A stretch of DNA of 64,000 nt from Arachidicoccus sp. BS20. Lineage in GTDB: Bacteria; Bacteroidota; Bacteroidia; Chitinophagales; Chitinophagaceae. The DNA is taken from contig NZ_CP015971.1 of NCBI RefSeq assembly GCF_001659705.1, positions 2,979,029 through 3,043,028 on the forward strand, written 5' to 3'. The notes below the pieces were generated by a model. It made no database searches. It saw only the letters and a list, made by a program, of their open reading frames with translations, and had not been told where the DNA came from. The translations under genes were made by a program, and so were the position numbers. Of the stretch, positions 4,755-21,274 are shown piece by piece (positions within the stretch are counted from its first letter, which is position 1; every line of letters begins with the position of its first letter).

Positions 4755-5133
4755 TTAGTCGGCAACAGCACTTTGACTTCCTTTAACAGAATTGACATAA
4801 CAATTACAAGCAAATTTTATTCATCTACTTGCTTGGATAATTTTAAAGATGAACTAAACCCTGTTAACGTAAGCGTTAATATAGTTGGGTCGGTGTCAGG
4901 TCCCCCATTGCCGGTATTTTTTGATAAGTTATCAGCGTCATTTACCTTAAATCTGTTTGAGTTATCAAACATAAATACACTTTTTACGTTCAGGTTAAAT
5001 TGTAACTTGTCCATTTGTCTATATTTTCATGTAAATTTGAAATAAAATGAAAATGATAATTTAAAAATTACGCGAAACGATGGATAGGGGTGCTGTAAAT
5101 ACTTTTAGAAAGGCTAAAATCGTTTTTGGGAAT
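4755..5133. repeat. 379-bp direct repeat, left copy (precursor gene + start of kinase gene)
   Basis: Nearly identical in the same orientation to 16098-16476, at a constant offset of 11,343 bp. I found two differences: T at 4925 versus C at 16268, and G at 5128 versus T at 16471. Homology ends abruptly after position 5133. The repeat contains the complete precursor peptide gene, the divergent promoter region and the first 16 or so codons of the histidine kinase. The two copies flank the fragments, the 128-aa gene and the Rhs island. Confidence 0.93.
4817..5014 (-). CDS. Cys-free LanB-type RiPP precursor peptide, second copy
   Basis: Encodes a 65-aa peptide identical in sequence to the one at 16160-16357. 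The single base difference in the reading frame is synonymous (a Leu codon, TTA here and TTG there). It has the FNLN leader motif at residues 6-9, a GG at 37-38 and a 27-residue Ser/Thr-rich C-terminal part without cysteine. Its upstream region is preserved inside the repeat, so it could still be transcribed, and the LanB at 18263-21274 could modify it in trans. It is no longer beside an intact kinase gene: the divergent kinase ORF is cut off at the repeat boundary. Confidence 0.65.
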   Translation of the reverse strand: MDKLQFNLNVKSVFMFDNSNRFKVNDADNLSKNTGNGGPDTDPTILTLTLTGFSSSLKLSKQVDE

Positions 5134-5181
5134 ATCACTTGGTTACGAAGTTTGTATGTTTGTTCCTTACTCCGAATTTAA
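5080..5181 (+). pseudogene. Truncated 5' end of the LytS-type histidine kinase gene
   Basis: Starts with the same ATG and first 16 codons (MDRGAVNTFRKAKIVF) as the intact kinase at 16423. It leaves the homologous sequence at 5128-5133 and stops after 33 codons at 5179-5181. It retains none of the membrane or catalytic domains and is a by-product of the segment duplication. Confidence 0.8.
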
Positions 5182-8652: not shown

Positions 8653-11600
8653 TTATTTTGGAAGAACTGTATCAAATCCTCTAAAATAAATATCAAAGGG
8701 TATTCCTTTCCCTGCATACCAATGTCCTATTTTTGTCGCCTTATTTCTAAACCATACTTTGAATTGATGCTTTGGGTTAGGTTTTATATCGAAATCGTAC
8801 CTATCCTTTTCAATCATGAATTGATAGCTACCCATATAGTCAACAAATATATTTCCATAAACTAATCCGTCAACAGAATTATATAAAGTTTGTACATTTT
8901 TTCTGTCGCCGACACCCCACTCATTTGGATTCAGAAAATCTAAATCAACTTGATCTGCATCCACTGTTAAATCACCGCCTCCGCCAGTTCTATACCATTC
9001 ATTAGCCTCTTGCAAAGTTAGTTTTCCATCTGCTAATATTTTCTCTTTCAATTTTCTTCTATCATTTTCTAACTTTTGTTGTACTAAATGATTAAATCCT
9101 TCTACAATTATTCCATTTGCAGCACCTTCCCAAAAACTGCCGCCAGCAATACTACTGCTGGCTCCGCCAGTTAGTCCACTTATCGCATAATCGGCGGCAG
9201 AGCTACTCAATATAGAGTTTGGTCCTGCATACATATCAATACCTGAACCCACTAAAGAACTTACTGCACTGCTTAAAAAGCCAGACTTACCATTTCCACC
9301 AGTCATAGCACTCATTGCATATCCATCCAAGCCATGGGCCCCTGCTCGAAGTAATTCATGCCATAGGTTACCAGTAGTTCCAAAAGCACTTCCAATACCA
9401 TAAGTAATGGCGCCTTCCACAGCTCCTGTTATTAATTGTCCGGCAAATTCAGTCCAACTCCAGTTACTAAAACCACCTGGGCTTAGGGCTACATGCAAAG
9501 TATAGCTTGCTGCGCTTACTGCTGCTGCAATAAGTAGCGCAACCACTACTGGGTTATTTCCATCTTGGTCTATGTAGCTTAGGGGGTTATTATTAGCATA
9601 GCTATACCTGTTGTATGCCTGTGTTCCCCATTGGTTAGCCACATAATTATCCGGGCTTAGCATCCGTCCTTGGACTGGGTCATACACCCGTCCATTCATA
9701 TTTATCAATGAAAACTGCGTTAAATGCTCATGTCCGGTATAACCGCGATATAACCATGTAGGAACATTGGATACATTTGTGTACGTCCAGTTATCAGGAT
9801 TGCGCTTTCTGCCCCATGCATCAAAATTTTGTTTTGCTACAATTGCGCCGGTTCCGTCTGTTAAGGTAAGAATGCTTCCTAAATGGTCGGAATAAACATA
9901 ATACACTTTGGTTACAGTTCCCTCTTTGACGACAATTGCACACAAACCATTACCTGCACCAATGTAATGAATATACCTTGTAGTATCCCCTTTTATTTGT
10001 TTTTCGTAATCGCCAAAATAATACTTTGTCTCAACCGTAGTTCCGTTTTGAAGTAATATACTTTTAATTCTTTGCTGGTCCGCTCCATAAGTGTATTTCA
10101 ATACATATCCGTTTTGAGCAATGGTATCTACTTTTAAAAACGGCGTGTACCCAAGTGTTTGTGTATTCTGAGATATATTAGGCGGCGGCAACATTTGATT
10201 GCTGCCCGTATCCGTGATATAAGCAACTGCGTTTATTTTGGTTGTGTTATATACATATTTTCCCGCATCGCTTTTTGTATCAATATTTCCAAGAGACGTA
10301 CCGCTATTATTGTCATACGTCATGCTGAACTGCTGAACATTATTAACAGAAGCGCCCGTCAACCTTTTCAGATTATCATAGGTAAATGTCTCTGTCAGGT
10401 TTTTGATTGCATCTTTTCTTGAAGTAAGATTACTGCTATTCGCATCCCAAACCATATTCAAATCTTGTATGCCGGATGTATAATACCTGGTAGGCACACC
10501 TAAGTTTAAGTTAAAAGTAACCTGGCTTGATTTGCCATTTCCATATTTATAACCGGTATAAATGCCTTTGCTATTCATTGCTGTAGCTGTAAATAATGTT
10601 GTTGAAGTAGAACCATTCTGTAAACTAGTTTTAGTCGGCGTTCCATTTGCATCATATTCGTCATTAATAATTACGCCCGAAGCATAAGTAGTCTTTATCA
10701 GCTGACCAAAACTATTGTATTGAAACTGGTCAGTGTATGACGTACCATCAACAGTAGTTTTTTGCGTTATTTTTCTACCGAGATTGTCGTAAGTATAATC
10801 TGTAACATCACCAGAAAAGCCGGTTATTTTTACGATGTTATCGTTATTTTTTGTTCCATCGGAATAATAAATATAACTCGTTGTGCCTTCAGGTCCTGTT
10901 TTACTCGTTAAGCGACCAAAGTCATCATAACTCGTTGTATAAATATGATTCAGTGCATCTTTTTGTTGGGTTAGCTTTCCAAGTGCATCATACTGATATG
11001 TCATAGTCCCTGCATTCTTATCGGTAAGTGATGTCTGTCTGCTGTAATCATCATAAACAGCTGTTACCAAAACAGTACTTCCGATAGCAACTTTTGTTTG
11101 GTTTCCGCGACTGTCGTAAGTAAAATTTAACTGCCCGCCGTTGTCAATTGCATTTACCACCCTGCCGGCACCGTCTTGCGTTTTGCTGCTTGCCTGCCCG
11201 GCAGAATTGGTTACTGTAACTTTAAACTGCCCACCCGATAACTTAGAATAAGATGTTGAAGTATAATTTACCGGAGTACTCACTTTGATTACACGATTGT
11301 ATGTGTCGTATTGTGTGGTAACAACTTCTGCTGTTTCATTTTGATAGTACGGCATCTTCTGGCTTGCAATATTACCTTTAGCATCATAAGTAGATGTTTG
11401 AGATAAAAACTGGCCATTAAAGCCACTGGTTTGCTGAGCAATTTCTCTGCCCAACATATCATACGCTGTTTTAACCGATGCCTGCCCGCCATCTTGTGCA
11501 TACTTATAATTTATGTACGAAACATTTCCTGTATTCGACCAGGTTAATGCATTTAAAATAATCTGCCCGTCCGGTAGTAGCATTTTTGTATTTCTTCCAA

Positions 11601-16097: not shown

Positions 16098-16159
16098 TTA
16101 GTCGGCAACAGCACTTTGACTTCCTTTAACAGAATTGACATAACAATTACAAGCAAATT

Positions 16160-16357
16160 TTATTCATCTACTTGCTTGGATAATTTTAAAGATGAACTAA
16201 ACCCTGTTAACGTAAGCGTTAATATAGTTGGGTCGGTGTCAGGTCCCCCATTGCCGGTATTTTTTGACAAGTTATCAGCGTCATTTACCTTAAATCTGTT
16301 TGAGTTATCAAACATAAATACACTTTTTACGTTCAGGTTAAATTGTAACTTGTCCAT
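16160..16357 (-). CDS. Cys-free LanB-type RiPP precursor peptide
   Basis: A 65-aa peptide. The start MDKLQFNLNVKSV resembles the nisin leader (TKDFNLDLVSV), including the FNL(D/N) box at residues 6-9 that class I LanB dehydratases bind. A GG pair at 37-38 is a plausible cleavage site. It leaves PDTDPTILTLTLTGFSSSLK plus LSKQVDE, with nine Ser/Thr in 27 residues, five of them Thr before the SSS run, in an alternating T-L-T-L-T pattern. There is no cysteine in the whole peptide, so lanthionine rings cannot form. It is divergent (65 bp) from the kinase/regulator pair and near a full-length LanB. A 90-aa plus-strand frame covers the same bases, but the leader motif and context favour this strand. 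The precursor role is inferred. Confidence 0.7.
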   Translation of the reverse strand: MDKLQFNLNVKSVFMFDNSNRFKVNDADNLSKNTGNGGPDTDPTILTLTLTGFSSSLKLSKQVDE

Positions 16358-16422
16358 TTGTCTATATTTTCATGTAAATTTGAAATAAAATGAAAATGAT
16401 AATTTAAAAATTACGCGAAACG
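16358..16422. promoter_or_regulatory. Divergent promoter region of precursor and kinase genes
   Basis: A 65-bp AT-rich interval between the oppositely oriented start codons of the precursor peptide and the kinase. It must hold both translation starts and probably both promoters. It is the natural target of the LytTR regulator encoded at 17538. It is duplicated intact at 5015-5079. Confidence 0.5.
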
Positions 16423-17541
16423 ATGGATAGGGGTGCTGTAAATACTTTTAGAAAGGCTAAAATCGTTTTTTGGAATGTCAATAAATATCTTTTTACAATT
16501 CGATTTCACGTACTGTGTTGGTCAATTTTTATTGCTTATGAAATTCTTTTAATATTTTTCTTAGGTGGATTGCGCAAAACATTTTGGGATTACGTTACTT
16601 CATATACCTTCTGTATTTGTCTTTTTTATTTTCATAGCTTTTATATCCTTGAACGTTCAATTGGAAAGCCATATCAGGCAGTAAGAATTATTGTTTTGGT
16701 TTTATTTGAAATATTCTTATATAATTTTCTTTCATCTCTTTATTCGTCATTGGCTAAAAGCGGAAGTTTTAAGGAAAGATTTTTTAGCATTGCCGTTACG
16801 GAAACAGCGAGCCATATTGGTCGTGCAGTTTATTTTATAGGGCTTAGTACTGCGTATTGGTTAGGATTAACAGCTCGAAGAAGACAAAAAAGAATTGCTG
16901 CGATGCAGCTTCAGCGTTTTCAATCGGAACGAAAGCAATTGCAATTGTCAAACGACTTGTCTAAGGCGCAACTTCAATATATAAAGGCTCAAATTAGCCC
17001 GCATTTTATTTTTAATGCACTGAATGCTGTTTATTGTTCTGTTGAAGAAACAGATAGCGCATCTGCTGAAATAATTTCACTGCTCTCACAAATAATGAGA
17101 TATGCTTTAGCTGACCTCGACGCAGATGGAAAAGTGGCTTTATCTGAGGAAATTGCCAACATTGGCAATATTATAAAATTAGCGCAATTGCGATATGGAG
17201 ATAAATGCTTTATACATTTTACTTGTTTGGGCGAAGTAAGCAATCAACGCATCATTCCGGTAATATTGAGCAATCTTGTAGAGAATATTTTATCACACGG
17301 AGACCTTTCAGACCCGCTAATACCTGCGGTAATCAAGGTCATTTTAAAAAACAATTCTTTATATTTCTACACGAAAAATAAAAAGAATTATATTGACTTA
17401 TCTGTAAATAAAGCTTGGAACTCTACGGGAATTGAGTTCGCAAAACAGAGATTGGAATCCTATTATCCGGAGAAGTTTACATTGGATATTACTAATGATT
17501 CAAAAATCTTTGAAACTACTTTGAAAATTGAATACCTATGA
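16423..17541 (+). CDS. LytS/YehU-type sensor histidine kinase
   Basis: A 372-aa protein. Four hydrophobic segments lie in about residues 25-150 (e.g. FHVLCWSIFIAYEILLIFFL). A cytoplasmic coiled region with basic residues (GLTARRRQKRIAAMQLQRFQ) leads into the His_kinase (PF06580) domain with the phospho-acceptor motif QISPHFIFNALN. The ATPase N-box (LSNLVENILSHG) and a G-box-like STGIEFAKQRL follow. No periplasmic sensor domain is present, so the signal is probably sensed through the membrane part. Its stop overlaps the start of the LytTR gene by 4 bp (ATGA). Its first codons lie within the duplicated segment. It most likely controls the RiPP genes on either side. Confidence 0.92.
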   Translation: MDRGAVNTFRKAKIVFWNVNKYLFTIRFHVLCWSIFIAYEILLIFFLGGLRKTFWDYVTSYTFCICLFYFHSFYILERSIGKPYQAVRIIVLVLFEIFLYNFLSSLYSSLAKSGSFKERFFSIAVTETASHIGRAVYFIGLSTAYWLGLTARRRQKRIAAMQLQRFQSERKQLQLSNDLSKAQLQYIKAQISPHFIFNALNAVYCSVEETDSASAEIISLLSQIMRYALADLDADGKVALSEEIANIGNIIKLAQLRYGDKCFIHFTCLGEVSNQRIIPVILSNLVENILSHGDLSDPLIPAVIKVILKNNSLYFYTKNKKNYIDLSVNKAWNSTGIEFAKQRLESYYPEKFTLDITNDSKIFETTLKIEYL

Positions 17542-18257
17542 TAAATTGCATGATTGTAGAAGATGAACAACATAGTATCGATTTGTTGGAAAGATATATT
17601 GAAAGAACGCCGGGATTATCGCTGTTAGCCTACGATAAAAATCCCCTAAATGCATTTGCAGATATATCAACAAAACAGTTAGAGCCGGATGTAGTTTTTT
17701 TGGATATAAATATGCCGGGTCTTACCGGGCTCGACCTTGCGAAGCAAATTATTTCATTTACCAAAGTTGTGTTTACGTCCGCACACTCAAAATATGGAGT
17801 TAAAGCTTTTGATATAGGCGCTTTTGATTTTTTAGAGAAACCTTTTACTTATGAACGTTTTTTGCAAACAATCAGAAGACTGAATGAACCGATTGTAAAG
17901 CATCATCAAGAATCGGCGATAAATGATTTCTTTTTTATTAAAGGAAATAAGAAAGGGATAGTAGAACGTGTTGATTTGGATAATATCCTATATATTGAAT
18001 CATCACACAATTACGCCGTATTGTATTTATCGGATGGTAGTAAGCAAACCATTTATATGAGCCTTGCTGAAATAGAGGGCGCTTTGCCAAAAGATAAATT
18101 TTTGAGGATACAAAGGTCTTATATCGTTAATCTTAAAAAAATTCAGAAAATAGAAGGCAATATGATTTATTTACAATCGCTCAAAGAGCCGATAAATTGC
18201 GGTTCATTGTACAAAGAAAGTCTTCTTGAAGTCATTAAAAAACAATTGCTGGGCTAA
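17538..18257 (+). CDS. LytTR-family response regulator
   Basis: A 239-aa protein. The receiver domain (residues 1-120) has the acidic pocket EDE, the phospho-acceptor region VVFLDINMPGLTGLDL and the conserved lysine in LEKPF. The LytTR DNA-binding domain (about 135-239) has FFIKGNKKGIVERVDL, ILYIESSHNYAVLYL, and FLRIQRSYIVNLKKIQKIEG. It is translationally coupled to the kinase. It ends 5 bp before the convergent stop of the LanB gene, so the cluster is very tight. The expected targets are the precursor and dehydratase promoters; no repeat-type LytTR site was clearly identified. Confidence 0.93.
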   Translation: MINCMIVEDEQHSIDLLERYIERTPGLSLLAYDKNPLNAFADISTKQLEPDVVFLDINMPGLTGLDLAKQIISFTKVVFTSAHSKYGVKAFDIGAFDFLEKPFTYERFLQTIRRLNEPIVKHHQESAINDFFFIKGNKKGIVERVDLDNILYIESSHNYAVLYLSDGSKQTIYMSLAEIEGALPKDKFLRIQRSYIVNLKKIQKIEGNMIYLQSLKEPINCGSLYKESLLEVIKKQLLG

Positions 18258-18262
18258 AACTG

Positions 18263-21200
18263 CTATGCGTACTTTTTCACACTTTTTATTGAATAATAAT
18301 GCCGCCACAAAAGATAATGCATTATCATTTCTTGTTTCCTGAAATCATGAGAAAACAATCTGTTGAGATGCATATGAATAATATCAATGAAGACCGATGA
18401 TTTTTGTTGTATCTTTTTTGATAGTTTTTTAATTTCTGTAACTAATAATATAGCTTCTCTTTCAATCCGAAAGAATTTAACGTCTTTATCTGCGTCAAGA
18501 ATAGTCGGTCTAAATTCTCTGTATTTCTTTTGCAACTGAATGTAAATCTTGTCTTCAATATTTAATTCTTTTTGAAAGGCTTCAAACATCTCTTGATGAA
18601 AAGAACATTTTTCTTCAATTGTCAATCCCATTGTGGTTGTAATGGTATCAATGATATAAAACGAGAGAGAAAAATATTTCTGCTCGGTTGGAGAAGGCTT
18701 GTTGTAATGAAGAAAGTTCATAATTAGATTACTGCACGTGCAGAAAACATTTTCAACGTCTTCTATATTTTCCGAACCATATCGTTCAAGCTCTCTTTTA
18801 TATTCTGCAATAATTACGTTTTGGGCAATTCTTTTCTCTTTGAGAATAGACAAATATTTATTGACAATTTTGAGAATTTTCTGCAAATTCTCTCCATTAA
18901 AATTAAAGCGCAATCTTAAATGATTATCGGGGTCTAAATATCTTACATAGTGCCATTTTTTTATGAGATTTTCAGCATACAATTCATTTACGATGTTATA
19001 AATAATCTCTGCGATTATTTCATTCGAATGGCTGCTGTGGCAATAAATTTTGTAGTATATCCAATCTTCACAAGGAATAAATTCTCTTTGGGTTATCGTA
19101 TGGTCAGAAAAGACGGGACAATTTGTTTCTTTATATACTTCATCGCATCGATATAGATGTGTAATAAACTGGCTGATATACGGTAATTTATTCTCGTCTT
19201 TCACTGCAAATTGTTGATTAGAAACAAAAGGAAATTCTTTGATGATAAGATATTTTTCCTTTTGTAAAATGTCTGATAAAAGCAACATGTCAGAATCTAT
19301 ATGAAGATTAAAAACCAATTGCTGGTCGAACTGCGTGTAGGCAAAATGTGTTGAAATACCTAATTTAATCAGCATTTCCCTTATTAGTTGGATAGAATCG
19401 TTTGAATTATTCTTTAAACAGTATTCCCATGTTTCGCGGCTAATATGCCATTCCGCAAGACATAGGATTGTGGATTTATATGCTACTCGTGGATAATACT
19501 GAAATCCCGGAAAAAATTGGCTCAAAGAAAAAGGCAAGATAGGATGTATGTCCTGATACTGTACATCACATAAGAATCTGAATATCGCTAAATCAGCACG
19601 TGAATAATTATATGCTGAATCTAATCGGGGAATTATTCGTTTGCCAAGGCTCTTTGACCATAGTAGAATTGAGCCTTCTTTTATTTCAATCCAAATATCC
19701 GATAATCGTATTTGTTTGCTTTGCTCTTTTGTGGAACTTACTAAAATGGGTATTTCATAATCTCTGACAGAAATCCTCCTCTCGATATTTGCCGTTTTAT
19801 AATCGCTGATGCTATTTATTTCTGTGAATATTACATGAGGATTTGAATCTCTTTCGATACGTGTTATATCTTTTGCCAGTCTTGCTATTTTTTCCGAAAA
19901 GGGAGTAAATCTCCCGATGAGAGAAGTCGCCGTAGCGCTGCTGACGGATTCAATAAATACTTGGTGGTCGTCAATAATTCTGAACATTACAGAAAAGCTT
20001 GGCGGCAGTTTATCATTGTTGTCATGTATTGTGTTGGCGTATTTTTCTAAATCCGATTGCTGTAATTGAATAACTTGTTTATTGCCGCTTTGCTCAATCC
20101 ATTTTTGCAAAAGCAAATGACGGATAGAGTCGAGTTCAATGGATGTTAAACCCGAACCTGCATTTTGCTTATTGAAGACGACATTTTGAGTTAAGGAAGA
20201 ATTTTCACATTGAGATGCGAGGCTATTGTAATTAATTCCTGCATCCGGGTCTAATGCCTGTAATAATGGGATACATTGTCTGTCAAACTTAGTATTAAAT
20301 TGAACAATAAAATCATCTATTTGAGGTATGGAAACCTTTTGATTACACAATGCATTGAGTATGAAAATTCCATCTTTGATAGCATCTTGAAATTGATTTG
20401 AAATATCGCCTTTTATCATTTCTTTTTCTGCATTTACACATAGAGATAGAGATGGATCAAGTTGTGTAATTTTATTTAATGATTCAATATCAGTTACCGA
20501 TTGAATATTTTGCAGATATTCATATTCGGCACTGCTTATCCTATTCGCAAAATCCGGCTCTATAACACCCTGTAATGTTGCGGGAAGTATGATTTTTAGT
20601 TCAATCAGTTGATTAAATAATCCGACATAGTCAATAAAATTGGGTAACTCTTTAGACAGACAAGTCAATATTTCTTTGTTGTCTCTTGGGTTTTTACAGA
20701 ATTCTATTATTTTTAAAACAAGAGGTATCTGTTCGATTTCATTAATGAAAAAGTTTTTACCATTTAATCCGTTGTTTCTAAAACACAGGTATCGGAAATT
20801 AGTCCCTATTTTATAAAATGTAGGATTGCTGTGATATACTGTTTCAGTATTATCGAAAGAATCGCTTTTTTCATTTAATTCAATTACTTCGGCAAAGTCC
20901 AATGCCGTATGCAGGCATATTTTTCCCAACTGAATGTCATTATTTGCGACACCCCATTTTAAGGTTGAAAAAGCAGCGAATAAGCCAAAAGGAGTTGTTC
21001 TATAAGACATTCGGTTGAAGTATTTATGTAGGCTTGTTTTCTCTTTTTCACTAAAAGATTGGTATTCAAAATTTTTCTTCTTGAGATTATAGTATAGGCT
21101 TTTACTTGCAAGAAAAATCGACATCCTAAATGTGCTGTTTTGCAGAAGTTCGCTGATATTATCTGACGGATATTGTTTAAAACTAAGCGTTGGCGTACGT

Positions 21201-21274
21201 AATATAACATCGCTGTGAAAAGAATAAATTGAACTAGACTGTTCTTCAAAGAGGTTGTTTTTGCTAATCTTCAT
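18263..21274 (-). CDS. Full-length class I lantibiotic dehydratase (LanB-like)
   Basis: A 1003-aa protein. In this family LanB uses glutamyl-tRNA to glutamylate Ser/Thr of a precursor and then eliminates glutamate to give dehydroamino acids. The N-terminal domain (1 to about 680) shows the conserved NRMSYRTTPFGLFAAF motif (about residues 88-103) and FRMSIFLAS. The C-terminal elimination domain (about 735-1000, SpaB_C / thiopeptide type) has WIYYKIYCHSS, HLRLRFNF and ERYGSENIE. Both domains are joined, as in NisB, unlike split thiopeptide enzymes. It is convergent with the LytTR gene and is a one-gene unit. No cyclase, protease or ABC transporter gene adjoins it: the sequence upstream (21,275-21,944) is non-coding and then becomes mobile-element sequence. 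The enzyme call is firm; the substrate is inferred. Confidence 0.92.
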   Translation of the reverse strand: MKISKNNLFEEQSSSIYSFHSDVILRTPTLSFKQYPSDNISELLQNSTFRMSIFLASKSLYYNLKKKNFEYQSFSEKEKTSLHKYFNRMSYRTTPFGLFAAFSTLKWGVANNDIQLGKICLHTALDFAEVIELNEKSDSFDNTETVYHSNPTFYKIGTNFRYLCFRNNGLNGKNFFINEIEQIPLVLKIIEFCKNPRDNKEILTCLSKELPNFIDYVGLFNQLIELKIILPATLQGVIEPDFANRISSAEYEYLQNIQSVTDIESLNKITQLDPSLSLCVNAEKEMIKGDISNQFQDAIKDGIFILNALCNQKVSIPQIDDFIVQFNTKFDRQCIPLLQALDPDAGINYNSLASQCENSSLTQNVVFNKQNAGSGLTSIELDSIRHLLLQKWIEQSGNKQVIQLQQSDLEKYANTIHDNNDKLPPSFSVMFRIIDDHQVFIESVSSATATSLIGRFTPFSEKIARLAKDITRIERDSNPHVIFTEINSISDYKTANIERRISVRDYEIPILVSSTKEQSKQIRLSDIWIEIKEGSILLWSKSLGKRIIPRLDSAYNYSRADLAIFRFLCDVQYQDIHPILPFSLSQFFPGFQYYPRVAYKSTILCLAEWHISRETWEYCLKNNSNDSIQLIREMLIKLGISTHFAYTQFDQQLVFNLHIDSDMLLLSDILQKEKYLIIKEFPFVSNQQFAVKDENKLPYISQFITHLYRCDEVYKETNCPVFSDHTITQREFIPCEDWIYYKIYCHSSHSNEIIAEIIYNIVNELYAENLIKKWHYVRYLDPDNHLRLRFNFNGENLQKILKIVNKYLSILKEKRIAQNVIIAEYKRELERYGSENIEDVENVFCTCSNLIMNFLHYNKPSPTEQKYFSLSFYIIDTITTTMGLTIEEKCSFHQEMFEAFQKELNIEDKIYIQLQKKYREFRPTILDADKDVKFFRIEREAILLVTEIKKLSKKIQQKSSVFIDIIHMHLNRLFSHDFRKQEMIMHYLLWRHYYSIKSVKKYA

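Follow-up and report, generated by a model that had tools for sequence, protein, structure and literature searches.

Introduction

Class I lanthipeptide systems, such as those of nisin (NisB/NisC), the pinensins and the Chryseobacterium and Runella lanthipeptides, combine a precursor made of a leader and a Ser/Thr-rich core with a full-length LanB dehydratase carrying both glutamylation and elimination domains, with the exception of the pinensin LanB, which is reported to be split (PMC7268733). According to the same source, a large survey of lanthipeptides was anchored on LanC and counted Cys-lacking precursors as non-lanthipeptides; a clade of LanBs without LanC and with Cys-free precursors would thus be invisible to it. 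Such a locus is described here, in a 64-kb stretch of the genome of Arachidicoccus sp. BS20 (contig NZ_CP015971.1; the whole stretch is called the window). A LanB gene is found there together with those of a Cys-free peptide, a LytS-type histidine kinase and a LytTR response regulator. A short peptide gene, a kinase, a LytTR regulator and an operator consisting of direct repeats also make up the peptide pheromone circuits agr, com, blp and pln.

The same set of genes recurs in many related bacteria, and therefore probably represents a family of signal peptides with chemical modifications that has not been recognised before. The explanation favoured here, with modest confidence, is that the locus belongs to a widespread, unnamed family of Bacteroidota, in which linear dehydrobutyrine-rich peptides made by LanB are part of LytS/LytTR autoregulatory, probably signalling, cassettes. 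No description of LanB-only systems with Cys-free precursors and LytTR regulators in Bacteroidota was found in the accessible parts of the open literature.

Conservation of the LanB, peptide and LytS/LytTR unit

The four genes proposed in the initial annotation of the window were all recovered by open reading frame (ORF) and domain searches. The gene of the 65-residue precursor peptide (copy 1, minus strand, 16160–16357) is divergent from that of the LytS-type kinase (plus strand, 16423–17541, PF06580), which has two hydrophobic segments according to a simple hydropathy analysis. The LytTR regulator follows (plus strand, 17538–18257, PF00072 and PF04397), facing the full-length class I LanB dehydratase of 1003 residues (minus strand, 18263–21274), which has glutamylation and elimination domains (PF04738, PF14028, TIGR03891).

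Relatives of the LanB were sought in 394 genomes of the same family, 45 of which, including the own genome, had a match at 1e-20. A further 68 loci were obtained from GTDB contigs with patterns drawn from module LanBs, so that the frequencies given below for the clade are not prevalences. After removal of 10 duplicate loci, a midpoint-rooted tree was calculated with 114 LanBs, from 113 loci and the window. Two LanB fragments of less than 700 residues (L091, L108) were left out, and shorter pieces such as L042, L044, L056, L087, L121 and L158 were kept. The window LanB belongs to a clade of 75 with a support of 1.00.

The unit conserved in this clade comprises a LanB, a LytS/LytTR pair and a Thr-rich peptide that is Cys-free in most cases, and it lacks LanC. 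Within 5 kb, a kinase is present near 67 of the 75 clade LanBs versus 15 of the 39 outside the clade, a regulator near 65 and a peptide near 66. A LanC, called with a hidden Markov model built on 20 LanCs of these loci, is found within 5 kb of 4 of the 75 (within 300 bp in one case) versus 28 of the 39. Fisher tests comparing the clade with the outside gave 1e-13 for LanC and 2e-8 for the kinase, relatedness of the loci being ignored. The kinase, regulator and peptide of the window entered these counts by hand, and 17 of the 73 peptides, including 11 from the clade, were identified visually. The kinase and regulator had been seen as accessory, yet no other partner accompanies the peptide so constantly, and this holds even for loci with the LanB elsewhere.

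The loci with the closest LanBs share one arrangement: the LanB is convergent with the regulator, which is followed by the kinase and the peptide divergent from it. Divergent orientation of peptide and kinase is seen in 63 of 66 loci, with a median of 105 bp between the starts. Distances among LanBs, kinases and regulators are correlated over 66 modules (Mantel r 0.73–0.87, 0 of 2000 permutations), as would be expected of an inherited module.

A second LanB with a kinase, a LytTR regulator and a Cys-free peptide is encoded in the same genome (L004:8060–13461; G000:C1, about 2.728–2.733 Mb); neither this locus nor the second peptide copy of the window, presented below, figured in the initial annotation. 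The L004 LanB groups with those of L072, L076, L083 and L086, outside the clade of the window, and no LanC was found in the fetched stretches of this group. Cys-free precursors may therefore have two separate origins.

Absence of LanC and cysteine content

The reported absence of LanC from the cluster extends to the whole genome, as PF05147 had no match anywhere in the single 3.49-Mb contig, which is 96% complete. LanC was also absent genome-wide from 12 of the 44 other LanB-bearing genomes of the family, including G379, G316, G144 (69% complete), G039 and G305, and a genome search found none in G471 and G565, two carriers from another family of the class.

The ORF confirmed that the 65-residue peptide has no Cys, and 45 of the 66 clade peptides are wholly Cys-free. 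Cys-containing precursors next to close LanB homologues had been named as contrary evidence; the cores beside the closest LanBs (L037–L044) proved to be without Cys, the one Cys of L037 being in the leader. In a subclade comprising L049, L051, L052, L054, L059, L062, L067, L143 and others, one or two Cys are found near the C-terminus of the peptide, without LanC. A single C-terminal Cys together with several Thr raises the question of an uncatalysed or other ring closure in this subclade.

The precursor peptide

The aligned peptides of the family (alignment A2) comprise a basic leader with an FxF region, followed by a core with the consensus TDPTTxTxTxT, in which D42 is nearly invariant. The FNLN leader box pointed out initially is present, as just the first part of a longer conserved region, FNLNVKSVFMF in the window (residues 6–16, minus strand, 16310–16342); FxF is conserved in the A2 consensus, and the matching region is VNVEVKSVFKC in L037, the closest relative. 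The core of the window peptide (residues 41–52, minus strand, 16202–16237) reads T-D-P-T-I-L-T-L-T-L-T-G, for a clade consensus of D-P-T-T-x-T-x-T. The alternation of Thr and Leu previously noticed does exist, strictly so over T47–T51 only, and the SSS triplet presented as a core feature is not conserved in the family alignment.

Peptides encoded around the closest LanBs have 40–70 residues. In the family, the Thr content is 27% in the C-terminal half of the peptides, compared with 9% in the N-terminal half. The cores are enriched in TxT triplets (106 observed versus 74.1 ± 7.4 in shuffled cores, 0 of 2000), and their middle residue is Val, Ile or Leu in 74 of the 106. Of 222 intergenic ORFs situated at most 500 bp from a kinase gene, 57 contain the T-rich DPT-type motif, versus 32 of 10,053 other ORFs of the LanB loci, which is more than expected by chance; this count excludes the window, one of the 57 is an antisense chance match in L037, and several of the 32 are real peptides. 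When the peptide and 44 relatives were searched against NCBIfam and Pfam, no match was better than E ≈ 0.05.

Twelve codon comparisons, drawn from 21 related loci, gave a rate of non-synonymous substitution (dN) of 0.02–0.28. The synonymous rate (dS) was 0.22–2.2, always exceeding dN, in the 11 comparisons with finite dS, the pair L144/L149 having none. The comparisons share loci L125, L127 and L128, and one pair (L045/L047) is outside the clade. The window is not among these loci, its peptide having no relative close enough for a dN/dS comparison. Amino-acid identity was higher in the peptide frame than in the overlapping plus-strand frame for 10 of the 12 pairs, equal for one and lower for one, identity alone separating the two frames poorly because they share third codon positions. 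A stop interrupts the overlapping plus-strand frame in 48 of the 66 clade peptides, and the other four frames have stops in 60 to 66 of the 66. Given these stops across the clade, the peptide frame is the conserved one.

The LanB enzyme

The nearest solved relative of the window LanB by sequence is 9g04, named MadB in the fold search. A structure model, used for the fold alone, matched MadB, NisB and MibB. With NisB catalytic residues numbered according to PMC4341554 and equivalence set by spacing, the equivalents of Y80, R83, R87, R784, H961 and R966 are retained in every clade member that has the corresponding column.

Action of LanB on the Cys-free peptide, with the linear dehydrated product predicted initially, is well supported by the comparison of loci: the conserved linkage, the low dN relative to dS in relatives, the retained catalytic residues of both LanB domains, and the absence of LanC both locally and from the whole genome. 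From established LanB chemistry, Thr residues of the core should be converted to dehydrobutyrine and left uncyclised.

The element upstream of the peptide gene

Direct repeats with a spacing of 21 bp were found in 14 of 65 distinct regions upstream of the peptide, versus 1.6 ± 1.2 in shuffles preserving dinucleotides. Among spacings from 10 to 39, none besides 21 bp exceeded three standard deviations. A 40-bp operator matrix was derived from the upstream regions, the strongest part of which is GTTGGTGTAATAA, about 55–70 bp before the start of the peptide. In a leave-one-out procedure, the matrix scored above the 99th percentile of shuffles, here preserving base composition alone, in 48 of 66 regions, a number that is mildly optimistic because the sites had been aligned with all members beforehand. 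Operator-like sites also occur upstream of LanB in 9 of 74 clade loci and in 0 of 39 other loci. Among ten loci that were not used for building the matrix, the operator was strong in four (0 of 200 shuffles) and borderline in two (3 of 200). For the LanB-upstream sites and for these ten loci, the shuffles likewise preserved base composition alone. LytTR sites are described as two direct or inverse repeats of 9–11 nt, 11–13 nt apart (PMC4847170), and the repeat element of the family fits the geometry of operators of LytTR regulators.

In the window, the candidate operator of peptide copy 1 (minus strand, 16401–16440) is at the usual distance of the family from the peptide and overlaps the start codon of the kinase. 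Its leave-one-out score is 10.6, above the threshold of 6.0 given by the 99th percentile when regions of 200 bp are shuffled. The candidate operator of copy 2 (minus strand, 5058–5097) has the same sequence as that of copy 1, and for this reason brings no independent evidence. A ranking in which both peptide copies come out as the top operator matches of the window is inflated, the matrix having been trained on the window as well. Altogether, the evidence for the window operator is modest to weak, and the element may be called operator-like at the level of the family.

Cassettes remote from LanB and tandem peptides

A profile of the peptide matched 18 of the 394 family genomes at 0.01, several of the matches being in long reading frames and probably due to chance, and 3 of 395 genomes of the class at 1e-4, including the own genome. 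In G084, two cassettes consisting of peptide, kinase and regulator have no LanB in the fetched 20 kb (L184, L185), the clade LanB of this genome being 12–26 kb away. The profile also revealed two further full modules in G280 (L186, L187) and, in G205, a peptide encoded on a short contig (L188). G471 and G565 were newly found by the profile, and both have a LanB that matches the module profile. They contain tandem arrays of four and six peptides (L206 and L207) located between kinase and regulator and having STDPTANTILMTQSSMSN in common; the six genes of L207 extend over 9719–10661. Three more cassettes of G565 have no LanB in the fetched 20 kb (L204, L205, L208).

Repeats and neighbouring genes

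A second peptide gene, identical to copy 1 in amino acids, was revealed by sequence comparison at 4817–5014 of the window, on the minus strand. It is contained in one copy of a 383-bp direct repeat (copy 2, 4755–5137), together with its candidate operator and a kinase gene that breaks off after about 16 codons, with 99.2% identity to the other copy (copy 1, 16098–16480). The pair brackets 11 kb that include a gene for a 2443-residue RHS/SpvB-like protein, and looks like the result of an integration or duplication through the peptide gene. On one flank, a conjugative-transposon gene is found with PF12508 (TraM) and PF13595 (2496–4596), and on the other flank a DUF932 gene (PF06067, 21945–22976). 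In L048, L055 and L208, genes that resemble DUF932 by eye likewise neighbour a LanB or a peptide cassette. The presence of conjugative-transposon and DUF932 genes near the cassettes suggests mobility.

Neighbours enriched in clade loci compared with the others are SusD (25 of 74 versus 2 of 39), SusC (27 of 74 versus 5 of 39) and thioredoxin-like genes (17 of 74 versus 1 of 39), a lead only, as these counts include no correction for relatedness among the loci. Genes of these three kinds lie beside L042, L185–L187 and other modules. No enrichment was found for AraC-like (5 of 74 versus 2 of 39), NusG-like (4 of 74 versus 0 of 39) and propeller-like genes (3 of 74 versus 0 of 39). A NusG-like gene follows that of the peptide in L040 (PF02357), L041, L100 and L103, the last three identified by BLAST, and a non-ribosomal peptide synthetase condensation gene (PF00668) also follows the peptide in L040. 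A secreted-looking protein of 107 residues with two Cys and no Pfam match is encoded in L059 (13363–13686), with similar ones near other modules.

Discussion

In the favoured explanation, LanB would bind the N-terminal leader of the peptide at the conserved hydrophobic FxF region, as known LanB chemistry leads one to expect. Using glutamyl-tRNA, it would glutamylate the Thr residues of the DPTTxTxTxT core and then eliminate glutamate. The predicted product is a linear peptide with dehydrobutyrines separated by Val, Ile or Leu, in which nothing would be cyclised because there is neither LanC nor Cys. The peptide, the divergent LytS kinase and the LytTR regulator would form an autoregulatory cassette, the regulator binding the repeats upstream of the peptide and, in some loci, of LanB. 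Judging from gene linkage alone, the modified peptide is most likely a signal read by its own kinase, with autoinduction, and would be exported through genes located elsewhere. Signal rather than antibiotic is favoured because the peptides keep their kinase and regulator when the LanB is remote, and often have an operator of the LytTR type. Going further, and tentatively, these peptides may represent a new class of ribosomal signal peptides of Bacteroidota: linear dehydrobutyrine-rich pheromones made by a LanB that has given up cyclisation, each encoded together with a dedicated LytS/LytTR receptor pair, while a single LanB would serve several ligand-receptor cassettes scattered over a genome.

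A number of observations weigh against the favoured explanation. Regarding the control element, the operator matrix is below threshold in 18 of the 66 regions, including that of the closest relative L037, and the operator is absent from 4 of the 10 out-of-sample loci. When the matrix was built without the window, the sites of its two peptide copies ranked ninth and tenth in the 64 kb (score 10.1), and the site before its LanB was outside the best 14; its own operator candidate shows no clear 21-bp repeat. Regarding the gene set, the peptide was not found at nine clade loci, no LanB was found in G205 despite the peptide, this genome being 79% complete, and no exporter or leader peptidase is part of the module. 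Homologues of C39-type ABC transporters, counted by BLAST with one query, are present in 8 of 74 clade loci versus 17 of 39 others. Linkage is no proof of a signal either, because LytTR pairs also regulate bacteriocins. Regarding the enzyme and its substrate, the confidence of the LanB structure model is medium (pLDDT 65). The equivalent of NisB R826, considered along with R786, is Lys in 4 clade members, and that of R775 is Ser in 3. The overlapping plus-strand frame, whose conservation in place of the peptide frame had been considered initially, is still open in 18 of the 66 clade peptides, the window included; the stops in the majority go against that possibility. A core Cys, assigned according to a motif rule and, for L045, by manual re-labelling, is present in 16 of the 66 clade peptides, in 14 of these among the last 8 residues. 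None of the 16 has an adjacent LanC, and conversely L100 has a LanC beside its LanB and a Cys-free peptide, so that the proposal of the initial annotation that the two absences explain each other does not hold in general.

Other explanations share part of this evidence. LanB could dehydrate the peptide to yield an antimicrobial akin to class I lantibiotics but made without a cyclase, with LytS/LytTR merely controlling production. Bacteriocin genes of Streptococcus gallolyticus are reported to be under the control of LytTR proteins (PMC8545106), and variable output neighbours such as the condensation domain of L040 would suit this role. The scarcity of C39-type exporters compared with other LanBs argues against it, immunity genes not having been searched for, as does the fact that additional peptides are accompanied by a kinase and a regulator of their own. 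One core is moreover kept across tandem copies, though recent duplication alone could explain this. An antimicrobial product is considered unlikely, while deserving the most attention among the alternatives. That the peptide is a substrate of LanB would have to be given up if it belonged to the kinase and regulator only, LanB acting on something else, as the cassettes without adjacent LanB might suggest. This is quite improbable, considering the frequency of the peptide near clade LanBs, the module-profile LanB in both newly found genomes, the operator-like sites before some LanBs, and the anatomy of the peptide, with its leader and Thr-rich core.

The chemistry could also differ from dehydration. 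LanB relatives without LanC and with Cys-free precursors are reported to have proved to be PEARLs or pyritide enzymes (PMC11002830), so that LanB might add an amino acid or only glutamylate, by a PEARL-like or arrested reaction. However, the LanBs of PEARL and pyritide systems are described as short or truncated, and PEARLs as lacking co-occurring PF14028 (PMC11212132), whereas the window LanB has a fused PF14028 and retains the elimination residues. A product other than a dehydropeptide appears improbable, if marginally less so than a peptide foreign to LanB. The least credible alternative, and a very improbable one, is that of an ordinary lanthipeptide whose rings are formed in trans, by a LanC or with a Cys peptide from another locus. 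It would agree with the LanC beside the LanB of L100, and with those encoded elsewhere in carriers G349 and G006; no LanC was found in the host genome, nor in several carrier genomes that are nearly complete, and the precursor has no Cys.

If the proposed chemistry is true, a full-length dehydratase would make linear dehydropeptides with no cyclase involved; if the signalling is true, Bacteroidota would possess a communication system based on modified peptides.

Compared with known systems, the pathway would be class I lanthipeptide-like up to dehydration, the window LanB having the PF04738 and PF14028 domains characteristic of the class. The locus is not filed as such, because LanC and a core Cys, two further characteristics, are both missing. 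The module further differs from class I lanthipeptide systems in seldom having a C39 exporter, as well as in its nearly constant LytS/LytTR pair and its core motif. It shares with PEARL/pearlin systems a LanB of the same superfamily and the lack of LanC and precursor Cys. PEARLs are short LanBs without PF14028; since this elimination domain is fused in the window LanB, the system is not a PEARL. Dehydroamino acids without lanthionine are also described in thiopeptides and goadsporin, through split LanB-type enzymes, and in pyritides, through truncated LanBs. These and the dehydrazoles differ by their split or LanM-type dehydratases and by azole or pyridine chemistry. Azole-containing dehydropeptides need a YcaO cyclodehydratase, for which the host genome has no match (PF02624); pyridine synthases were not searched for. 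Cys-lacking precursors of a lanthipeptide-type dehydratase are reported among cyanotins (PMC7268733). The cyanotin dehydratase is a LanM and that of the window a LanB. We know of no link between such Cys-free LanM substrates and LytS/LytTR. With the agr, com, blp and pln circuits, finally, the module has in common a short peptide gene adjacent to those of a kinase and a LytTR regulator. It differs from them by a kinase of the PF06580 type, by the lack of AgrB or an ABC exporter, and by a peptide that is linked to a LanB.

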